From Nocardioidaceae bacterium (GTDB lineage Bacteria > Actinomycetota > Actinomycetes > Propionibacteriales > Nocardioidaceae): 64,000 nucleotides of DNA. Numbering within the stretch: the stretch's first letter is position 1; each line of letters begins with the position of its first letter. The stretch lies in contig JAUJOD010000004.1 of the NCBI GenBank assembly GCA_030447865.1, positions 176,074 through 240,073 of the forward strand, in the 5' to 3' direction. A program made the translations under genes and the position numbers. Under the pieces are notes generated by a model, which worked only from the letters and a program-made list of their open reading frames with translations, did no database searches and was not told the DNA's origin. Below, one piece after another: positions 22,119 to 35,763 of this stretch.

Positions 22119-23669
22119 TCAGACGGAGCCGTGCCCTTCGCCGACGTCTCGCCGACGGCCATCATGTCCCACATCGTCACCGCGTGTCTGTCCGTCTCCG
22201 GTGTGCCCACCCTGGGAGCCGTACTGCTCATCGGCCTCCTCATGCACCCCAGGCTCCCCCACCGCGATCAAGGTGCCGGGATCGGGGTCACGCAAGTGTG
22301 TTGGAGCGACGGCCCGCGACAGGTGGTAGAACACCAAGACCACGATCGTGCCGAGCGCGATGCCACCGAGTCTGAAGTCGTCGGTGACCACGAGCTCGGT
22401 GTTACCGATGGCGATCACGATTCCCGCGCCGAGCGGGACGAGGTTGATCGGGTTCCCGAAGTCCACTCCGTTCTCGCGCCAGATCTTCGCGCCGAGCAGG
22501 CCGATCATGCCGTAGAGGATGACCGTGATGCCGCCCAGCACTCCGCCGGGGGTCGCCGACACGAGGGCCCCGAACTTCGGTGAGAATCCGAACAGGATCG
22601 CGACGAACGCCGCCACGTAGTATGCGGCCGTCGAGTAGACGCGGGTCGCGGCCATCACGCCGATGTTCTCGGCGTACGTCGTCGTCGGCGACCCGCCGAC
22701 AGAGGTGGCGATCACAGTGCCGACGCCGTCGCCGCCGATGGCCCGCCCCATCACCGGGTCGAGGTCTCTGTCGGTCATCTCCGCGACGGCCTTCACGTGC
22801 CCGGTGTTCTCGGCGATCAGCGCAATCACCGCTGGGAGGACGAGCAGGATGAAGGCGATGGAGAAGCTGGGAGCGTGCCAACCGACAGCGTCGAGGTTCC
22901 CCTCGAGGGTCTGGTTGCCGACCAAGTCACCGGGGGTGTGCGGCGGGAAGCCGACCCAGTTGGCCGCCTCGACGTTATCCCAGTTCACGCGGTAGTGCGT
23001 CGTGACCTTTTCGATGGCAGGGTCCAACGAGGTGATCTGGCCGAAGACGCCGTCGAAGATCCAGGAGAGGACGTACCCGAAGATGAGTCCGAGGAAGATG
23101 GCGATACGACCGATGAAACCTCTGGCCCCGACCGCGACCAGGATGACGAATGCCATCGTGAGTAGTGCCACCCACTGGTCCTGCGGCCAGTAGATGTCCG
23201 CGACGACGGGAGCCAGGTTGAATCCGATCAGCATGACGACCGCACCGGTGACCGCTGGCGGCAGTACGGCATGCAGCACCCGCGGTCCGGCGAAGTGGAT
23301 GAGCAGGCCGACGAGCGCGAGCACCACACCCGCCACCAGGATCGCCCCGGTGACGTCGTCGGGTCCACCACTTTGGCCGTAGATAGCGGTGGCACCGCCG
23401 ACGAAAGACGCGCTGGTGCCGAGGTAGCTCGGCACCTTGCCCTGCACGATCAGCAGGAAGCAGATGGTGGCGATGCCGCTCATCATGATGGCGAGCTGCG
23501 GACTCAGGCCCATGATGACGGGGAACACGAACGTCGCCCCGAACATCGCTACCACATGCTGCGCACCCAGCCCGGCCGTCCTCCCCCACGACAGTCGCTC
23601 GTCGGGTGCGACGGCCTCTCCCGGCGGTGGCGTCTTGCCCTCGTGTACGACTGTCCACCCAACTGCCAT
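22119..23669 (-). CDS. NCS2-family nucleobase permease, UraA/RutG (uracil) type
   Basis: A 516-residue inner-membrane symporter with about a dozen hydrophobic segments. It has LIAENTGHVKAVAEMTDRD, the substrate-site region with Glu and His as in UraA, and GGSPTTTYAENIGVMAATR. The TYxENIGVMA form is that of uracil transporters such as UraA and RutG; xanthine and urate members usually have a QN at that place. The C-terminal 60 residues are a charged His/Gly/Asp-rich tail (GGHTGDGQTRGDDVGHDGRRR), unusual for the family. The ATG follows GGGAG. It precedes the molybdenum hydroxylase genes on the same strand, which argues that the imported base is the hydroxylase substrate. Confidence 0.9.
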   Translation of the reverse strand: MAVGWTVVHEGKTPPPGEAVAPDERLSWGRTAGLGAQHVVAMFGATFVFPVIMGLSPQLAIMMSGIATICFLLIVQGKVPSYLGTSASFVGGATAIYGQSGGPDDVTGAILVAGVVLALVGLLIHFAGPRVLHAVLPPAVTGAVVMLIGFNLAPVVADIYWPQDQWVALLTMAFVILVAVGARGFIGRIAIFLGLIFGYVLSWIFDGVFGQITSLDPAIEKVTTHYRVNWDNVEAANWVGFPPHTPGDLVGNQTLEGNLDAVGWHAPSFSIAFILLVLPAVIALIAENTGHVKAVAEMTDRDLDPVMGRAIGGDGVGTVIATSVGGSPTTTYAENIGVMAATRVYSTAAYYVAAFVAILFGFSPKFGALVSATPGGVLGGITVILYGMIGLLGAKIWRENGVDFGNPINLVPLGAGIVIAIGNTELVVTDDFRLGGIALGTIVVLVFYHLSRAVAPTHLRDPDPGTLIAVGEPGVHEEADEQYGSQGGHTGDGQTRGDDVGHDGRRRDVGEGHGSV

Positions 23670-23824: not shown

Positions 23825-24076
23825 CTAGTTGGGGCGCGAGCCTCTCCGGCGGACGACGTACAGCACAATGAGCCCAGCCATCGCGAGAACTGCCACAACT
23901 GCGGACACGGTCCGGTCCCCTTCGTTGTCAGCCAGGAACATTCCCAGCACCGACGACAAGGCGCACGCGGCGAAGGAGGTAACCAATAACCACGTTGGCG
24001 GCCCCTTGGCTCCCGGTGATTTCGTGACGCCGATGAAGTCAAAGAACCGTCTGGTTCTACCGCGCCCTTCGGTCAA
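23825..24076 (-). CDS. Small two-helix membrane protein, 83 aa
   Basis: The protein has a basic N-terminus (RGRTRRFFDF), then two hydrophobic helices, WLLVTSFAACALSSVLGMFLA and VSAVVAVLAMAGLIVLYVV, and an RRRGSR end, predicting a hairpin with both ends in the cytoplasm. I recognise no family. The TTG at 24076 overlaps the pucR stop in TTGA, implying translational coupling. The 155 bases between its end and the permease hold the permease leader and the palindrome at 23691. A role beside the permease or the regulator is possible but inferred. Confidence 0.5.
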   Translation of the reverse strand: MTEGRGRTRRFFDFIGVTKSPGAKGPPTWLLVTSFAACALSSVLGMFLADNEGDRTVSAVVAVLAMAGLIVLYVVRRRGSRPN

Positions 24077-25764
24077 CGGTTCCTCATCTGCATGACCCGC
24101 AGCGCGAGCGAAAGGTCCAACTGGAGGTCGGGGTCAGCGGTGAAGGGTCCGACGATCCGCTCGAGCTTGCCGATCCGGTAGCGCAGCGTGTTGTAGTGAA
24201 AGTGCAGCCGGCGAGATGCCTCCGCCACGTTGAAGTTGGTGTCGAGCAGCACCCGCAGCGTCGCGCGCATGTCGGCAGCCTCGGGGTCGGTCTCGGAGGC
24301 GAGCTCACCCAGCACCTCGGTGACGAAGTTCCCGAGCTCGGCTGAGTCCTCGATCAAGCTGAGCAGCCGGAATGCCCCGAGGTCGTCGAAGTGGGCCACG
24401 GCAGATGGCCCCTGCAACTGGCGGCCAACGTGGACGGAGCGGCGCGCCTGCTCGTAACCGCCGGCGATCCCGGCCGGGTCGGAGATGACCCGGCTGACTC
24501 CCGTGGCGAAGGCGCGGCGTCCACCACCACCGTCGCCCGAGACCGCGCGCACCAGGGTCTCTACGGCAACGCGGGCCGCATTGCCGTCGGGTACGCCGAC
24601 GAGGGCCACGACCTCAGCGGCGAACCCCACTACGGGCGCCGCCTTGTCGAAGCGCCCCACCACCTGCACCCAGGCGTTGGCGAACCGGTCCTGGGCCGCC
24701 CGGGCGTCCCGGCGGGAGACGTCGGAGAGCTCCGCTGGGTCCAGCGCCGCCACGACAACGACCAGCGGGCGGGCGATGTCCCAGCCCAGTGAGTCGAAGT
24801 GCTCGACCACCGCAAGCGCCGAACCTGCCCGGTCGAGCAGCACGTCGCGGACGAAGTCGCCGCGGTACTTGGCTTCCACCGCCTGTACGGCGACCGCCTT
24901 GGTGATCGCAAGCGCGGCGACCGTTGCCGCTCGCTCCAGCACGTGCATGTCACCGTGTCGCAACGACTGACCGGCTCGTACGACGACAAGCCGCCCGTGG
25001 TCGGACTTGCCGGCCAAGACGGGAACCACGGCGAGAGCGGAGTCCGCCACCTGATGCACCCCGGGCGCGAAGCGCTCGGAGCGGAACCGGCCGGAGTCCA
25101 TGAACAGGTCTCGCTGGTCGAAGACCGCCTCGATCCCGTCGTCGCCGCGGAAGGTGAGCAGCCGGCCGTCCGGCGTGGTGACGAACGTGAGCCCACCGAT
25201 CAAGTCGTGCAGCTCGTTGACCAGCTCGTCGAGGCCGCCCCCGTCGAGCACCACGCCGACCAACGCCCGGTGCACGAGCTCACTGCGCTCGAGGATCGTC
25301 GACTGGCGGTTGAGCACGTCGCTCAGCACGGCATTCAGGAGGTCGTCGAAAGCCACCTCATCGGGCAGCAGCAAGACCGGCAGGTCGCGCCTGTCCGCCT
25401 CGGCGAGCATGTCTGCAGGCAGCTGATCGAGGTAGCGCCGCAGCTTGACCGCCAGCGCCGCCACTCCGACCTCGTCGAGGTCCGCCACCAACGCAGCGAG
25501 ACCCTGGGGAACCTCGCGCAACGGGTAACCGGTGGTCAGCAGCAGCTCATCCGGCTTGACCCACGGCATGATGTCGGGCACTTCCATGATGTTCACCCGG
25601 TCGACGACCCGGTCCAGGCCGGCGGAGCCAGCGACGACCTCCACCCCAGCGAACGCGGGCAGTGTCAACAGATCGGCCACCCGCACTGCGGAGTCGTCGG
25701 GCAGGGCAGCAGCATCTGACAACTCAGGGCGAGTTCTTGCCCCATCGTTGGCACAATTGCCCAT
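24073..25764 (-). CDS. PucR-family transcriptional regulator
   Basis: A 563-residue regulator. Residues about 26-150 are the PucR N-terminal (purine catabolism regulator-like) domain (VRVADLLTLPAFAGVEVVAG), the middle is a degenerate GGDEF-like CdaR domain, and the C-terminus is a PucR helix-turn-helix (LLDTNFNVAEASRRLHFHYN followed by TLRYRIGKLERIVG). PucR-type proteins control purine, allantoin and related nitrogen catabolism. The ATG at 25764 is chosen because a TAGCGT -10 lies seven bases upstream and conserved sequence starts soon after. It is divergent from the DUF2877-fdrA-DUF1116 operon and upstream of the permease-hydroxylase genes, so it probably regulates both. Confidence 0.9.
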   Translation of the reverse strand: MGNCANDGARTRPELSDAAALPDDSAVRVADLLTLPAFAGVEVVAGSAGLDRVVDRVNIMEVPDIMPWVKPDELLLTTGYPLREVPQGLAALVADLDEVGVAALAVKLRRYLDQLPADMLAEADRRDLPVLLLPDEVAFDDLLNAVLSDVLNRQSTILERSELVHRALVGVVLDGGGLDELVNELHDLIGGLTFVTTPDGRLLTFRGDDGIEAVFDQRDLFMDSGRFRSERFAPGVHQVADSALAVVPVLAGKSDHGRLVVVRAGQSLRHGDMHVLERAATVAALAITKAVAVQAVEAKYRGDFVRDVLLDRAGSALAVVEHFDSLGWDIARPLVVVVAALDPAELSDVSRRDARAAQDRFANAWVQVVGRFDKAAPVVGFAAEVVALVGVPDGNAARVAVETLVRAVSGDGGGGRRAFATGVSRVISDPAGIAGGYEQARRSVHVGRQLQGPSAVAHFDDLGAFRLLSLIEDSAELGNFVTEVLGELASETDPEAADMRATLRVLLDTNFNVAEASRRLHFHYNTLRYRIGKLERIVGPFTADPDLQLDLSLALRVMQMRNR

Positions 25765-25801
25765 GCCTGCGACGCTAGCGCACCGATTAGCGTCGCTGCC
25801 G
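25764..25801. promoter_or_regulatory. Symmetric back-to-back leaderless promoters between pucR and the carbamoyltransferase operon
   Basis: GCGACGCTA (25769-25777) and TAGCGTCGC (25788-25796) are a perfect 9-bp inverted repeat with a 10-base spacer. Each arm contains TAGCGT reading toward its own gene, and exactly seven bases later comes the start codon: GTG at 25801 on the plus strand, ATG at 25764 on the minus strand. The arms therefore look like the two -10 elements of divergent leaderless promoters, and the whole palindrome could also be a PucR operator. The -35 regions would fall inside the opposite coding sequence. Confidence 0.6.
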
Positions 25802-26511
25802 TGCCAGGTGTCCACCCGGTGTCCGCGATGGTTGCCAGCTCGCTGTGCGCCTCGATCCTCGACGGACCGCCACAACCCTTGTGGGTGATCCATCGCAGTA
25901 TGGCGGCGTGCCAGCTGGCTGATGCCGAGGGCATCGTCCGCGCCTGCGCCGTCACTGCGGCCGGCATTCGGCTCCCCCACGCCGTCGTGCTACCCACGCT
26001 GCCGGCTGGGCCGCGGCTGACCGCTGGCTCGGGCCGCCTGCGCTGGGACACCCACAGCTACCCGGTTGCGCGCTGGTGGAGACCGGCGCGGCCGCAGCTG
26101 CCCACGTTGCTGCCCCAGCTGCGCGGCCGCTCGCTCGACACCGTTGTGCACCGCTGGCTCGGCAGGGTGGGCGCCGGCCCCGGCCTCACGCCGTACGCCG
26201 ACGACGTGCTCTGCGGCATGCTGGTCGCCCTGCGCGCCGCCGGCCACTGGCACGCGGAGCGGTGGTCAGCCGCCGTGCGGGCTACCCCGCTCGAGCGGAG
26301 CACGACAGCAACCTCAGCGGCTCTGTTGCGGCTGGCGGCTGACGGCTGGTGCATCGGTCCGGTCGCGGACTACCTGACGGCGCTCGCCACCGGGTCGGGC
26401 GTGCACACAGCAGAACGGGAACTGCGGCAGGTCGGCCACTCCTCCGGGCGGGGTCTGCTAGCCGGCATCACCGCCGTCGTTGGCGACCGAGCGTTGGGCG
26501 CGGCAGCGTGA
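25801..26511 (+). CDS. DUF2877 protein (AllH/YlbF-like), oxamate carbamoyltransferase-type component
   Basis: A 236-residue protein with the DUF2877 signature GAGPGLTPYADDVLCGMLVAL near residues 122-142. In E. coli the related YlbF (AllH) is one of three proteins needed for oxamate carbamoyltransferase. The GTG start is read from a probable leaderless promoter. The stop overlaps the fdrA start in GTGA. In the family the Asp pair of the TPxxDD motif is conserved and is present here. Its individual role in the complex is unknown to me; operon position is the main guide. Confidence 0.82.
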   Translation: MPGVHPVSAMVASSLCASILDGPPQPLWVIHRSMAACQLADAEGIVRACAVTAAGIRLPHAVVLPTLPAGPRLTAGSGRLRWDTHSYPVARWWRPARPQLPTLLPQLRGRSLDTVVHRWLGRVGAGPGLTPYADDVLCGMLVALRAAGHWHAERWSAAVRATPLERSTTATSAALLRLAADGWCIGPVADYLTALATGSGVHTAERELRQVGHSSGRGLLAGITAVVGDRALGAAA

Positions 26512-27989
26512 GCCAGGTCATCGAGGTCCGCAAAGGCACCTACCACGACTCCGTCACGCTCATGCAGCTCAGCCAGGAGCTCAACGCCAGACCAGACGTG
26601 ACCACCGTTGTGGTGGCGATGGCCACCGAGCTGAACTTGTCGATGCTGGATGACATGGGCTTCGACCGACCGGCCGAGGCGACCCCCAACGACCTCGTCA
26701 TAGCCCTTGACGTCGCCGACGACGCGGCAGCCAAGGCGGCCCTCGACGCGCTCGGTGAACTGATGCAGCGTCAGCCGGCGCGGACCAGCGGGCTCGGCGA
26801 CCAAGAGCTTCCGTCGCCACCGACCGTGGCGACTGCAGCCCGCCGCGCCCAGTCGTCCCTGGCGCTGGTCAGCACACCGGGTCGGGTGGCTGCCCTGGAC
26901 GCCGCCGATGCGTTGGCGTCCGGACTCGACGTGATGATCTTCAGCGACAACGTGCCGGTCTCGCACGAGATAGCGCTGAAGGACATGGCCGCGACGATGG
27001 GGCGGCTGGTGATGGGTCCCGACTGCGGCACCGCGGTCGTCGACGGGATCGGGCTCGGCTTCGCCAACGTGGTGAGACCGGGACCGGTCGGCGTGGTCGC
27101 CGCCTCGGGTACCGGCGCCCAGCAGCTGCTCGCGCTGCTCGACGGGGCCGACGTCGGGGTGACCCACTGTCTCGGCGTGGGTGGGCGCGACCTGTCCAGC
27201 GACGTACGCGGACGGTCGACGCTGGCAGCGCTTGACCGGCTCGCCGCCGACGACACCGTCACCACGATCGTCGTGGTGTCCAAACCCCCGGCACCCGAGG
27301 TCGCTGACGTGGTCTCCCGGCACGCCGCGTCGCTGGGCAAACCGGTGATCCTCGGCTTCCTCGCCGCGGGGCGCCCGGATCTCACCGCAACCGCCGCCGA
27401 GGTGGTCGACGCGGTGGGCGCGAGGTGGGAAGACCCGCGTCGCTGGGGAGCCGGTCGCTCACCGACGACGCCAACCGATCCGGCTGCGAGCCGCTATCTG
27501 CGGGGACTGTTCGCGGGTGGCACCTTGTGCGATGAGGCCATGCTGATCGCAGCGGAGTCGCTCGGGACGCTGTCGTCCAACATCCCGCTGGCGGGTCACC
27601 GCCACCTCGATGCCGATCTCGCCTCGAACGGGCACACCTTCATCGACTTCGGCGACGACCAGCTCACCGTTGGGCGCCCGCACCCGATGATCGACCCGTC
27701 GCCGCGGCTGGAGCGGCTGGAGCGCGAGCTCGCCGACTCCGAGTGCGCCGTCGTCCTGCTCGATGTGGTGCTCGGGTACGCCGCGCACGCCGACCCCGCG
27801 ACCGACCTGGCCGCCGTGATCGCCGCCAGCGACACGCCGGTCGTTGTCTCCCTGATCGGAACCCGGGACGACCCGCAGGGGCTCGAACCCACGGCTGCCC
27901 GGCTGGTCGAGGCCGGAGCCGTCGTGCACGCCTCCAACGCCGCGGCGGCAAGAGAGGCCGTCAGCCTTGTCAGCGGTGGGCCGGCATGA
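26508..27989 (+). CDS. fdrA: FdrA-like acyl-CoA synthetase-fold protein (AllF-like), carbamoyltransferase component
   Basis: A 493-residue protein related to the alpha subunit of succinyl-CoA synthetase. VIEVRKGTYHDSVTLMQLS begins the FdrA N-terminus; GPVGVVAASGTGAQQLLALL and THCLGVGGRDLSSDVRG are the CoA-ligase-like nucleotide and phosphate region; RGLFAGGTLCDEAMLIA lies further on. E. coli FdrA (AllF) with YlbE and YlbF cleaves oxalurate with phosphate to oxamate and carbamoyl phosphate. Starts and stops overlap both neighbours by 4 bases (GTGA, ATGA), so equimolar synthesis is expected. With barbiturase and carbamate kinase in the same region, ureidomalonate is a plausible substrate; this is inference. 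Confidence 0.9.
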   Translation: MSQVIEVRKGTYHDSVTLMQLSQELNARPDVTTVVVAMATELNLSMLDDMGFDRPAEATPNDLVIALDVADDAAAKAALDALGELMQRQPARTSGLGDQELPSPPTVATAARRAQSSLALVSTPGRVAALDAADALASGLDVMIFSDNVPVSHEIALKDMAATMGRLVMGPDCGTAVVDGIGLGFANVVRPGPVGVVAASGTGAQQLLALLDGADVGVTHCLGVGGRDLSSDVRGRSTLAALDRLAADDTVTTIVVVSKPPAPEVADVVSRHAASLGKPVILGFLAAGRPDLTATAAEVVDAVGARWEDPRRWGAGRSPTTPTDPAASRYLRGLFAGGTLCDEAMLIAAESLGTLSSNIPLAGHRHLDADLASNGHTFIDFGDDQLTVGRPHPMIDPSPRLERLERELADSECAVVLLDVVLGYAAHADPATDLAAVIAASDTPVVVSLIGTRDDPQGLEPTAARLVEAGAVVHASNAAAAREAVSLVSGGPA

Positions 27990-29404
27990 CGGCGCCCACG
28001 AGTACCTCGGCCGTCGTCACCGCTGGTGCTGCTCTGTTCGCCGAGGAACTCACCCGGCAAGGCGTCGCGACAGTCGACGTCGATTGGCGGCCTCCGGTCA
28101 GCGGCACCGAAGATGCGCTCGCCACGGTGATGCTCGACCCTCGTCGGGTCACCGCGAACCAGGAGGCGCTGGCCCGGATGGTGTTGGCACGTGCCCAGCT
28201 GACCGACGTACGCCCCGCGGCGGAAGTCCTCGACCTGCAGCCGGGGCAGTTCCTGCACGCCGGGCCGCCGATCGAATGGGAGCGCGCGTCCGGGCCGCTG
28301 CGCGGGGCGCTGATCGGCGCGACGGTGTTCGAGGGGCTGGCCGACGACCCCGAGGCGGCCGAGCGGCTGCTTGCCCGCGGCTCACTGAGCTGGGAGCCCT
28401 GCCACTCGCGGGGAGCGGTCGGTCCGATGGCGGGCGTCGTCTCGCCGTCGATGTGGATGCTCGAGCTGTACGACGACGTGCACGACAGGTACTCCTGGTG
28501 CTCGCTCAACGAGGGTCTGGGGAAAGTGCTGCGCTACGGCGCGTACTCGGCCGAGGTCATCGACCGGCTGCGCTGGATGACCGACGTACTGGGGCCGGCC
28601 CTGCAGGCTGCGACGCGAGCCCGGGGGCCCATCGACGTACTGGCGATCATCGCGCAGATGATCCAGATGGGCGACGAGGGGCACAACCGCAACCGGGCCG
28701 GCACGTTGATGCTGCTCAAGGAGTGGCTGCCCGATCTGATCGCCGCCGACCTGCGACGGGCGGACCTTGCCGAGGTGGTCCGGTTCGTGTCCGGCAACGA
28801 CCACTTCTTCCTCAACGTGGCGATGCCCGCCTGCAAGCTCATCACGCGCGCGGCCAGCGGCATCCCCGGGTCCACCGTCGTCACCACAATGGCCCGCAAC
28901 GGCACCGACTTCGGCATCCAGGTGTCGGGCACCGGTGAAGAGTGGTACGTCGGTCCAGCCCAGCTCGCCGACGGGCTATACCTCGGCGGCTTCGGCCCCG
29001 ACGACGCCAACCCCGATATCGGCGACTCGGCGATTGCCGAAACCGCCGGCATCGGCGGCTTCGCGATGGCGACCGCCCCGGCCATCGTCCGGTTCGTCGG
29101 GGGAACCGTGCCCGACGCGTTGCGCACGACAGCCCGGATGTACGACCTGTGCGTCGGCGAGAACCCCTCCTGGGCCATCCCGGTGCTGGAGTTTCGCGGT
29201 ACGCCGACCGGTATCGACGTCACGTCGGTGCTCCGGACCGGTCAGCTCCCGCAGATTAACACCGGTATGGCCGGCCGGGTGGCCGGCACCGGACAGGTTG
29301 GGGCCGGTCTCGTCACACCCCCGATGGAGTGCTTCACCGCCGCGGGGCACGGCCTCGCCGCCGCCGTCCCCTCCCCACACCTTCCGGGAGTTGTCCGAAC
29401 GTAG
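27986..29404 (+). CDS. DUF1116 protein (AllG/YlbE-like), carbamoyltransferase component
   Basis: A 472-residue cytosolic protein of the DUF1116 family, the YlbE (AllG) partner of FdrA. Conserved segments include GALIGATVFEGLADDPEAAE, QMIQMGDEGHNRNRAGTLML, SGNDHFFLNVAMPACK and TTMARNGTDFGIQVSG. The Gly, Asn and His residues in GDEGHNRN and SGNDHFF look like active-site residues. The ATG overlaps the fdrA stop. The last codons and the TAG stop are supplied by a copy of the 44-bp palindromic repeat, so the original C-terminus may have been altered. It is the last gene of the operon. Confidence 0.88.
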   Translation: MTAPTSTSAVVTAGAALFAEELTRQGVATVDVDWRPPVSGTEDALATVMLDPRRVTANQEALARMVLARAQLTDVRPAAEVLDLQPGQFLHAGPPIEWERASGPLRGALIGATVFEGLADDPEAAERLLARGSLSWEPCHSRGAVGPMAGVVSPSMWMLELYDDVHDRYSWCSLNEGLGKVLRYGAYSAEVIDRLRWMTDVLGPALQAATRARGPIDVLAIIAQMIQMGDEGHNRNRAGTLMLLKEWLPDLIAADLRRADLAEVVRFVSGNDHFFLNVAMPACKLITRAASGIPGSTVVTTMARNGTDFGIQVSGTGEEWYVGPAQLADGLYLGGFGPDDANPDIGDSAIAETAGIGGFAMATAPAIVRFVGGTVPDALRTTARMYDLCVGENPSWAIPVLEFRGTPTGIDVTSVLRTGQLPQINTGMAGRVAGTGQVGAGLVTPPMECFTAAGHGLAAAVPSPHLPGVVRT

Positions 29405-35185: not shown

Positions 35186-35333
35186 GTGTCGGCCTCTCGT
35201 CCGGCTCGCGGACCACGGGGCCGTCGGCGACGTACGTTAGATGCCGCCTCAGCATTCTGCTCGGCAGCGGTTTGGGGCTGTCACCCCTGACCGTCGACAG
35301 CGAGGGGCTGCGAGGCGACGACCACGACGCCGG
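35186..35333 (-). promoter_or_regulatory. Expression platform of the FMN riboswitch, with competing hairpins
   Basis: Between the aptamer and ribD, two hairpins cross each other and cannot form together: CCCCT (35307-35303) with AGGGG (35288-35284), and GCTGTC (35301-35296) with GACAGC (35282-35277). A later GC-rich hairpin with AGCA/TGCT lies near 35247-35258. No U-run is seen, so control may be at translation of ribD or Rho-dependent rather than by intrinsic termination. Confidence 0.5.
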
Positions 35334-35453
35334 CGTGCATCCTCCCATCCGGACTTTCACCGTCGGTGCCGGAGTTTCACCGGCTCAACCGACCGCTGGC
35401 AGCGGCCGGGTCGCGGACTGTTACCGCCGGTTCGGAATTACACCGACCCCGGA
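35334..35453 (-). ncRNA. FMN riboswitch (RFN element)
   Basis: On the minus strand the conserved RFN boxes occur in order: GGTCGGTGTAATTCCGAACC, CCGGCGGTAACAGTCCGCGA, then a variable stem (GGCCGCTGCCAGCGGTC), GCCGGTGAAACTCCGGCACC, and CGACGGTGAAAGTCCGGATG followed by GGAGGATGCAC. These match the FMN aptamer closely. Binding of FMN should shut off ribD-ribE-ribM-ribBA-ribH and probably the downstream hisE-hisG. Its 5' end is flanked by a small perfect hairpin, CGAGTG-TTGT-CACTCG, at 35459-35474. Confidence 0.97.
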
Positions 35454-35763
35454 GCACGCGAGTGTTGTCACTCGTCGCCAGCCATTCTGCCAGACGCTTG
35501 AGGTGGGAACATCGTGACGCGGGACACTGCCGCACGAGCGGGAGAAGCCGCCGCAGGCTTCGGCCGGCCGCCCGGCCGTTAGGCAGCCGAGCCGCAGGCA
35601 GCCCGACGATTTGGCGCGTTAAACATGTCGATTCGGCCGTTAGGCATGCATAGCGCGCCAACCGTAGCCAGCTGGGACTCCCGCTGCGTTGGGTGCCGCC
35701 CGGCACCGTTGGCGTCCTGGCGGCCCGGCACCCCTGGCGGCAGGCCCGCACACCAGCCGGGCT
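35454..35763. other. Gene-free interval between rpe and the FMN riboswitch
   Basis: No convincing gene. The stretch should hold the end of the rpe transcript and the rib promoter. It contains the hairpin at 35459-35474; the direct repeat CGGCCGTTAGGCA at 35573-35585 and 35634-35646; and an 8-bp inverted repeat TTGGCGCG (35611-35618) with CGCGCCAA (35654-35661) enclosing the second copy. GCCGCCCGGCACC-like stretches recur near 35695 and 35725. I see no convincing -35/-10 pair. Confidence 0.5.

Follow-up and report, generated by a model that had tools for sequence, protein, structure and literature searches.

The window, by which we mean the whole 64,000-nucleotide stretch analyzed here, comes from a soil actinobacterium and carries a pucR / oxamate-carbamoyltransferase locus whose gene order, xdh-permease-pucR facing allH-allF-allG, is syntenic across the family. 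On the minus strand, the Pfam domain order PucR, GGDEF_2 and HTH_30 identifies a PucR-family regulator, which Pfam and synteny together place divergently from its presumed target, allHFG. Oxamate carbamoyltransferase is the allFGH product in Escherichia coli (PMC11326118). The genes that concern us are as follows.

22119..23669, minus strand: xanthine/uracil-type permease, gene 1 of the xdh operon (Pfam)
24073..25764, minus strand: pucR, PucR-type regulator, predicted leaderless (Pfam PucR, GGDEF_2, HTH_30; in-frame ATG conserved)
25801..26511, plus strand: allH, oxamate carbamoyltransferase subunit, predicted leaderless, with GTG at the predicted transcript start (Pfam AllH; start distance conserved)
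26463..27989, plus strand: allF, oxamate carbamoyltransferase subunit (Pfam Ligase_CoA, a CoA-ligase domain; synteny)
28019..29404, plus strand: allG, oxamate carbamoyltransferase subunit (Pfam AllG)

For comparison we used 80 loci from Nocardioidaceae, the window among them, in which pucR and allHFG are divergent; the relatives that the genome collection names comprise Nocardioidaceae MAGs, Mumia and Nocardioides. Rfam RNA families and tRNAs were not found at the pucR-allH interval. An FMN riboswitch lies elsewhere in the window (35331-35461, minus strand; Rfam RF00050, 95.3 bits).

The interval 25764-25801, bounded by the two start codons, holds three overlapping features.

25769..25796, no strand: perfect 9-10-9 palindrome made by the two -10 elements, its dyad not conserved (direct reading; 9/9 symmetry in 2 of 59 loci)
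25772..25777, minus strand: predicted pucR -10 element TAGCGT, 7 nt upstream of ATG (direct reading; TANNNT in 59 of 80 loci)
25788..25793, plus strand: predicted allH -10 element TAGCGT, 7 nt upstream of GTG (direct reading; TANNNT in relatives 33 or 34 bp after box B, a conserved element described below)

The palindrome consists of a left arm GCGACGCTA (25769-25777), a spacer GCGCACCGAT (25778-25787) and a right arm TAGCGTCGC (25788-25796). Reading along the plus strand, TAGCGT (25788-25793) is followed by CGCTGCC and then by the allH GTG at 25801; the minus strand reads TAGCGT (25777-25772), then CGCAGGC, then the pucR ATG (25764-25762). A first-pass annotation had described a perfect 9-10-9 inverted repeat with TAGCGT, seven bases and a start codon in each direction, and on direct reading this is exact. 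It had also placed the -35 regions within the opposing coding sequences, which is not where they fall: a 17-bp spacing puts them at 25765-25770 and 25795-25800, in the 7-bp gaps adjoining the opposing start codons, and neither hexamer resembles TTGACA. The predicted allH and pucR transcription starts are 37 bp apart.

A perfect dyad in such a position might be expected to serve as an operator, and the first-pass annotation had suggested that it may be a PucR site. A dimeric regulator, PucR or another, would then grip the two 9-bp arms and silence both promoters. The dyad is perfect over 9 bp, sits between two -10 elements and is retained in a congener (L023), and operators with a dyad over -10 regions are common. 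However, the window holds one perfect 9-10-9 palindrome while five shuffles of it gave 0, 0, 0, 1 and 1, and it holds 10 palindromes with spacers of 3-20 where the shuffles gave 7-25, which puts the palindrome as such at the level expected by chance. Across the 59 loci with paired -10 elements, 9/9 symmetry is confined to the window and L023; most of the others match at 4-6 of 9 positions. The arm-to-arm distance ranges from 9 to 12 bp. Arms in real pairs match each other no better than in permuted ones (2.24 vs 2.35 of 6 free positions), revealing no covariation. A genome search for TAGCGT-N10-ACGCTA gave no match, a result of little weight since the arms of this pattern are ordered wrongly for the site. 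The variable spacing and the independent variation of the arms favor two separate -10 elements over an operator bound by a dimer; the palindrome at 25769-25796 shows neither the conserved symmetry nor the fixed spacing of such an operator. We thus regard the operator reading as highly unlikely and the proposal of a PucR site in the palindrome as unsupported; the repeat is perfect because both -10 elements happen to read TAGCGT(CGC) in the window's genus. As a caution, a palindrome between divergent leaderless genes can be a pair of -10 elements and not an operator.

What the relatives do keep is the pair of -10 elements. Aligning the interval revealed TANNNT on both strands between the genes at 59 of the 80 divergent pucR-allHFG loci, with spacers between the paired elements of 9 bp (3 loci), 10 bp (15 loci), 11 bp (36 loci) and 12 bp (5 loci). 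The alignment anchors were scored with a small bonus for the left partner -10; the chance of finding that partner at any of the four spacers is ~1-2%, so the bonus does not account for 59 loci. At about 20 of the 79 loci scored, the pucR -10 has no clear match, and the face-to-face pair is thus not universal. Two promoters facing each other in the pucR-allH interval are therefore well supported as a prediction from sequence, and the earlier claim of two back-to-back -10 elements 10 bp apart stands, even though the palindrome that they form is kept only in the congener.

The first-pass annotation further predicted that both mRNAs start at or near the start codon. For allH this prediction is well supported: wherever the box and a long frame could be scored, the start codon lay 6-8 nt past a conserved TANNNT in 53 of 58 loci; of the remaining five, four reach their first suitable start after 32-55 nt and one was scored at 4 nt. 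The allH -10 is thus retained where the leader differs, which is how a promoter should behave. A single match to the motif carries no weight, because TAGCGT-N7-RTG is not enriched genome-wide (24 matches vs 22 for the reversed control). When 31 distances upstream of the candidate starts of 51 likely genes in the window were scanned, 7 of 10 TANNNT matches fell at 6-8 nt, two of the seven being those of allH and pucR themselves. This positional preference and the conservation in relatives are what goes beyond chance. Propionibacterium and the window's organism presumably belong to the same order. The -10-to-start spacing in the window agrees with the published actinobacterial leaderless signal (PMC3160421), and start-site mapping in Propionibacterium is likewise in agreement (PMC3848588).

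For pucR, the prediction holds in part. About 30 of 59 loci have an in-frame ATG 5-7 nt past the pucR -10, among them nearly all that encode a full-length PucR, and in the window's genus pucR is likely leaderless by this measure. In about 19 loci the frame is closed at once by an in-frame TGA after the ATG, so pucR is not leaderless from that codon there and must start some 30-40 nt further on. The hexamer ATGTGA is itself conserved 5-8 nt after the pucR -10 in about 24 loci (e.g., L071, L076, L087 and L120), with its TGA in the pucR frame in those about 19, where the message would open with a start-stop pair; ATGTGA may represent a minimal open frame or just belong to the DNA site. These short forms raise the alternative that pucR is not leaderless in the window either, and that it uses a downstream start (e.g., the GTG at codon 27) preceded by a 5' leader containing the conserved boxes described below. 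The short PucR of many relatives must begin downstream, and the PucR domain does not start until residue 31. Retention of an in-frame ATG 6-7 nt past the -10 in nearly all full-length relatives argues against a downstream start, which we consider rather unlikely.

Weighted column conservation yielded two further peaks, both early in the pucR gene: box A, which reads TATCAACNNTTG in relatives, and box B (ATCGTTGGCA). Box B contributed to the anchor score of the alignment and box A did not.

25717..25723, plus strand: box A, TGACAAC, candidate PucR half-site, about -84 to -78 of allH (column conservation)
25747..25753, plus strand: box B, GTTGGCA, candidate PucR half-site, about -54 to -48 of allH (column conservation, spacing scan)

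Box A reads TATCAAC in most relatives and TGACAAC in the window; box B lies within ATCGTTGGCA (25744-25753) and ends 34 bp upstream of the allH -10. In the window, and in those relatives that were read by eye, the CAAC of box A lies 27 bp upstream of the GTTG of box B. An anchor-free scan of the 80 regions found 63 NTTGGCA boxes, 59 of them with TANNNT 33 or 34 bp downstream, and none on the other strand. The distance from box B to the allH -10 is fixed while the -10-to--10 spacer varies, so box B keeps its place relative to the allH promoter, not the pucR promoter. Counted from the predicted allH start, the boxes span about -84 to -48; counted from that of pucR, they span about +12 to +48. 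One subgroup of loci (L084, L086, L090, L093, L096, L098, L100, L106-L108, L111, L116 and L121) keeps box A, as TTATCAAGTCTTGG, and the allH -10; a CTTGTCA-like sequence replaces box B in these loci, which have no clear pucR -10.

Because both boxes fall within pucR codons 1-16 in the window, their conservation could reflect coding constraint on the PucR N-terminus. In relatives with full-length pucR the boxes are indeed in frame (MxxxAND...) and at a fixed mutual distance. However, they persist in the about 19 ATG-TGA relatives, where they lie outside the pucR frame, which indicates selection on the DNA; their distance is tied to the allH -10 instead of the pucR -10; box B is retained in a locus that has lost pucR (L024, below); and the boxes recur upstream of the permease, beyond any pucR frame. 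We give coding constraint very little credence. The two-part element TGACAAC ... GTTGGCA (25717-25753) is a better candidate than the palindrome for the PucR site.

The same geometry recurs at the relatives' permease-xdh promoter. A CAAN4TG-type box was found upstream of this operon in 35 of 69 loci vs 0.24 in shuffles, a contrast that is optimistic because the pattern was picked after viewing matches from an earlier matrix search. TANNNT lies 68 or 69 bp downstream of the box in 35 of 35 such loci; the distance at allH is 68. Likewise, a GTTGGCA-like box (at least 5 of 7 positions) lies 33-35 bp upstream of TANNNT in 58 of 69 permease loci vs 2.6 in shuffles, with the proviso that these loci are mutually related and cannot be counted as independent. 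The earlier matrix search had been only mildly positive for the permease promoters, and the spacing tests were clearer. The boxes thus occur at several operons, at a fixed distance and upstream of the target's -35 position; the window's own permease promoter has no clear box pair. The position of the candidate PucR box is therefore conserved across a bacterial family at both presumed target operons.

We then considered whether the boxes belong to PucR. About 60 of the 80 loci with pucR have a correctly spaced box B, and the box at the allH promoter is kept in 1 of 16 loci without an adjacent pucR. Loss of the boxes may be partly co-deletion, given that pucR itself contains them near its start. 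Of the genomes with these 16 loci, none of 14 has a PucR match at E 1e-50, in a search without a built-in positive control; the same query protein matches the relatives far better than that threshold. One locus (L024, genome G002) amounts to a natural deletion experiment: pucR, its -10 and box A have disappeared from between permease and allH, and box B stays exactly 34 bp upstream of TAGCGT. This assembly is 88% complete, and a box B kept where no pucR was found also weighs against PucR as its binder. The boxes might instead bind a non-PucR regulator, such as a global nitrogen regulator, with PucR acting elsewhere. The genes of the locus serve nitrogen scavenging, and PucR binding here is a prediction. 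Against this, the boxes track pucR in the counts above and are present at both operons flanking it. In addition, a genome search for the A+B pair returned the site itself and one poor match; the pair is thus single-copy at this strictness, unlike the site of a global regulator. Another regulator is accordingly improbable.

Together, these data lead us to favor, with reasonable confidence, a reading in which two separate promoters face each other, allH and, in this genus, pucR are leaderless, the palindrome is no operator and PucR regulates from 25717-25753. Transcripts would begin at, or 1-2 bases from, the allH and pucR start codons. PucR would bind the two-part site TGACAAC ... GTTGGCA within the 5' end of its own gene and, being upstream of the -35 position, would recruit polymerase to an allH promoter that has no recognizable -35 element. 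Bound at about +12 to +48 of pucR, PucR would, together with the recruited polymerase, block pucR transcription. RNA polymerase covers about -55 to +20 of a promoter. The footprints at allH and pucR would thus overlap almost completely, which would preclude joint occupancy. The first-pass annotation had expected the promoters to be mutually exclusive, and such exclusion is what the 37 bp between predicted starts suggests. In E. coli, competition between divergent polymerases matters only once one direction is activated (PMC12825309), so the claim is better read as one-way interference upon induction. More tentatively, the locus may work as a homeostatic switch, in which a site in the first codons of a leaderless pucR lets PucR recruit polymerase to allHFG, the recruited polymerase shuts off pucR by sitting on its overlapping promoter, and the geometry is reused at the relatives' permease-xdh promoter. 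What began as a palindrome becomes a testable layout, in which a candidate PucR box accompanies a pair of leaderless promoters that overlap. In the literature searched, we found no operator for purine or oxamate catabolism in Nocardioidaceae; as far as that literature goes, the components are each known, and what is new for this family is the way they are combined, along with the candidate operator.

Leaderless genes in Actinobacteria have TANNNT about 12 bp before the start codon (PMC3160421, PMC3898074, PMC3848588). As here, their -10 elements lie 6-8 nt before ATG or GTG and GTG starts are common; the difference is that two such promoters face each other, with -10 elements 10 bp apart. The bidirectional promoters of Warman et al. 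(PMC12825309) share with this interval divergent transcription, close symmetrical -10 elements and competition once one side is activated. Those promoters use one shared -10 and start 10-23 bp apart, whereas here the -10 elements are separate and the predicted starts 37 bp apart, which places the interval outside the published definition. Among PucR-type regulators, GabR of Corynebacterium glutamicum is likewise encoded divergently from its target, and its two-part site spans -87 to -23 of the target start (PMC7652997), compared with about -84 to -48 of allH here; GabR differs in that it lacks a GGDEF-like domain, the gabT leader is 36 nt and the sites lie between the genes. PucR of Bacillus subtilis, in the account of Beier 2002 given by PMC10242094, regulates purine catabolism, activating from upstream of the -35 and repressing from downstream of the start, with another gene set and another promoter layout. 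Its box is non-palindromic, as is the candidate site here. The positions of the boxes relative to the allH and pucR starts thus fit what these sources describe for GabR and B. subtilis PucR.
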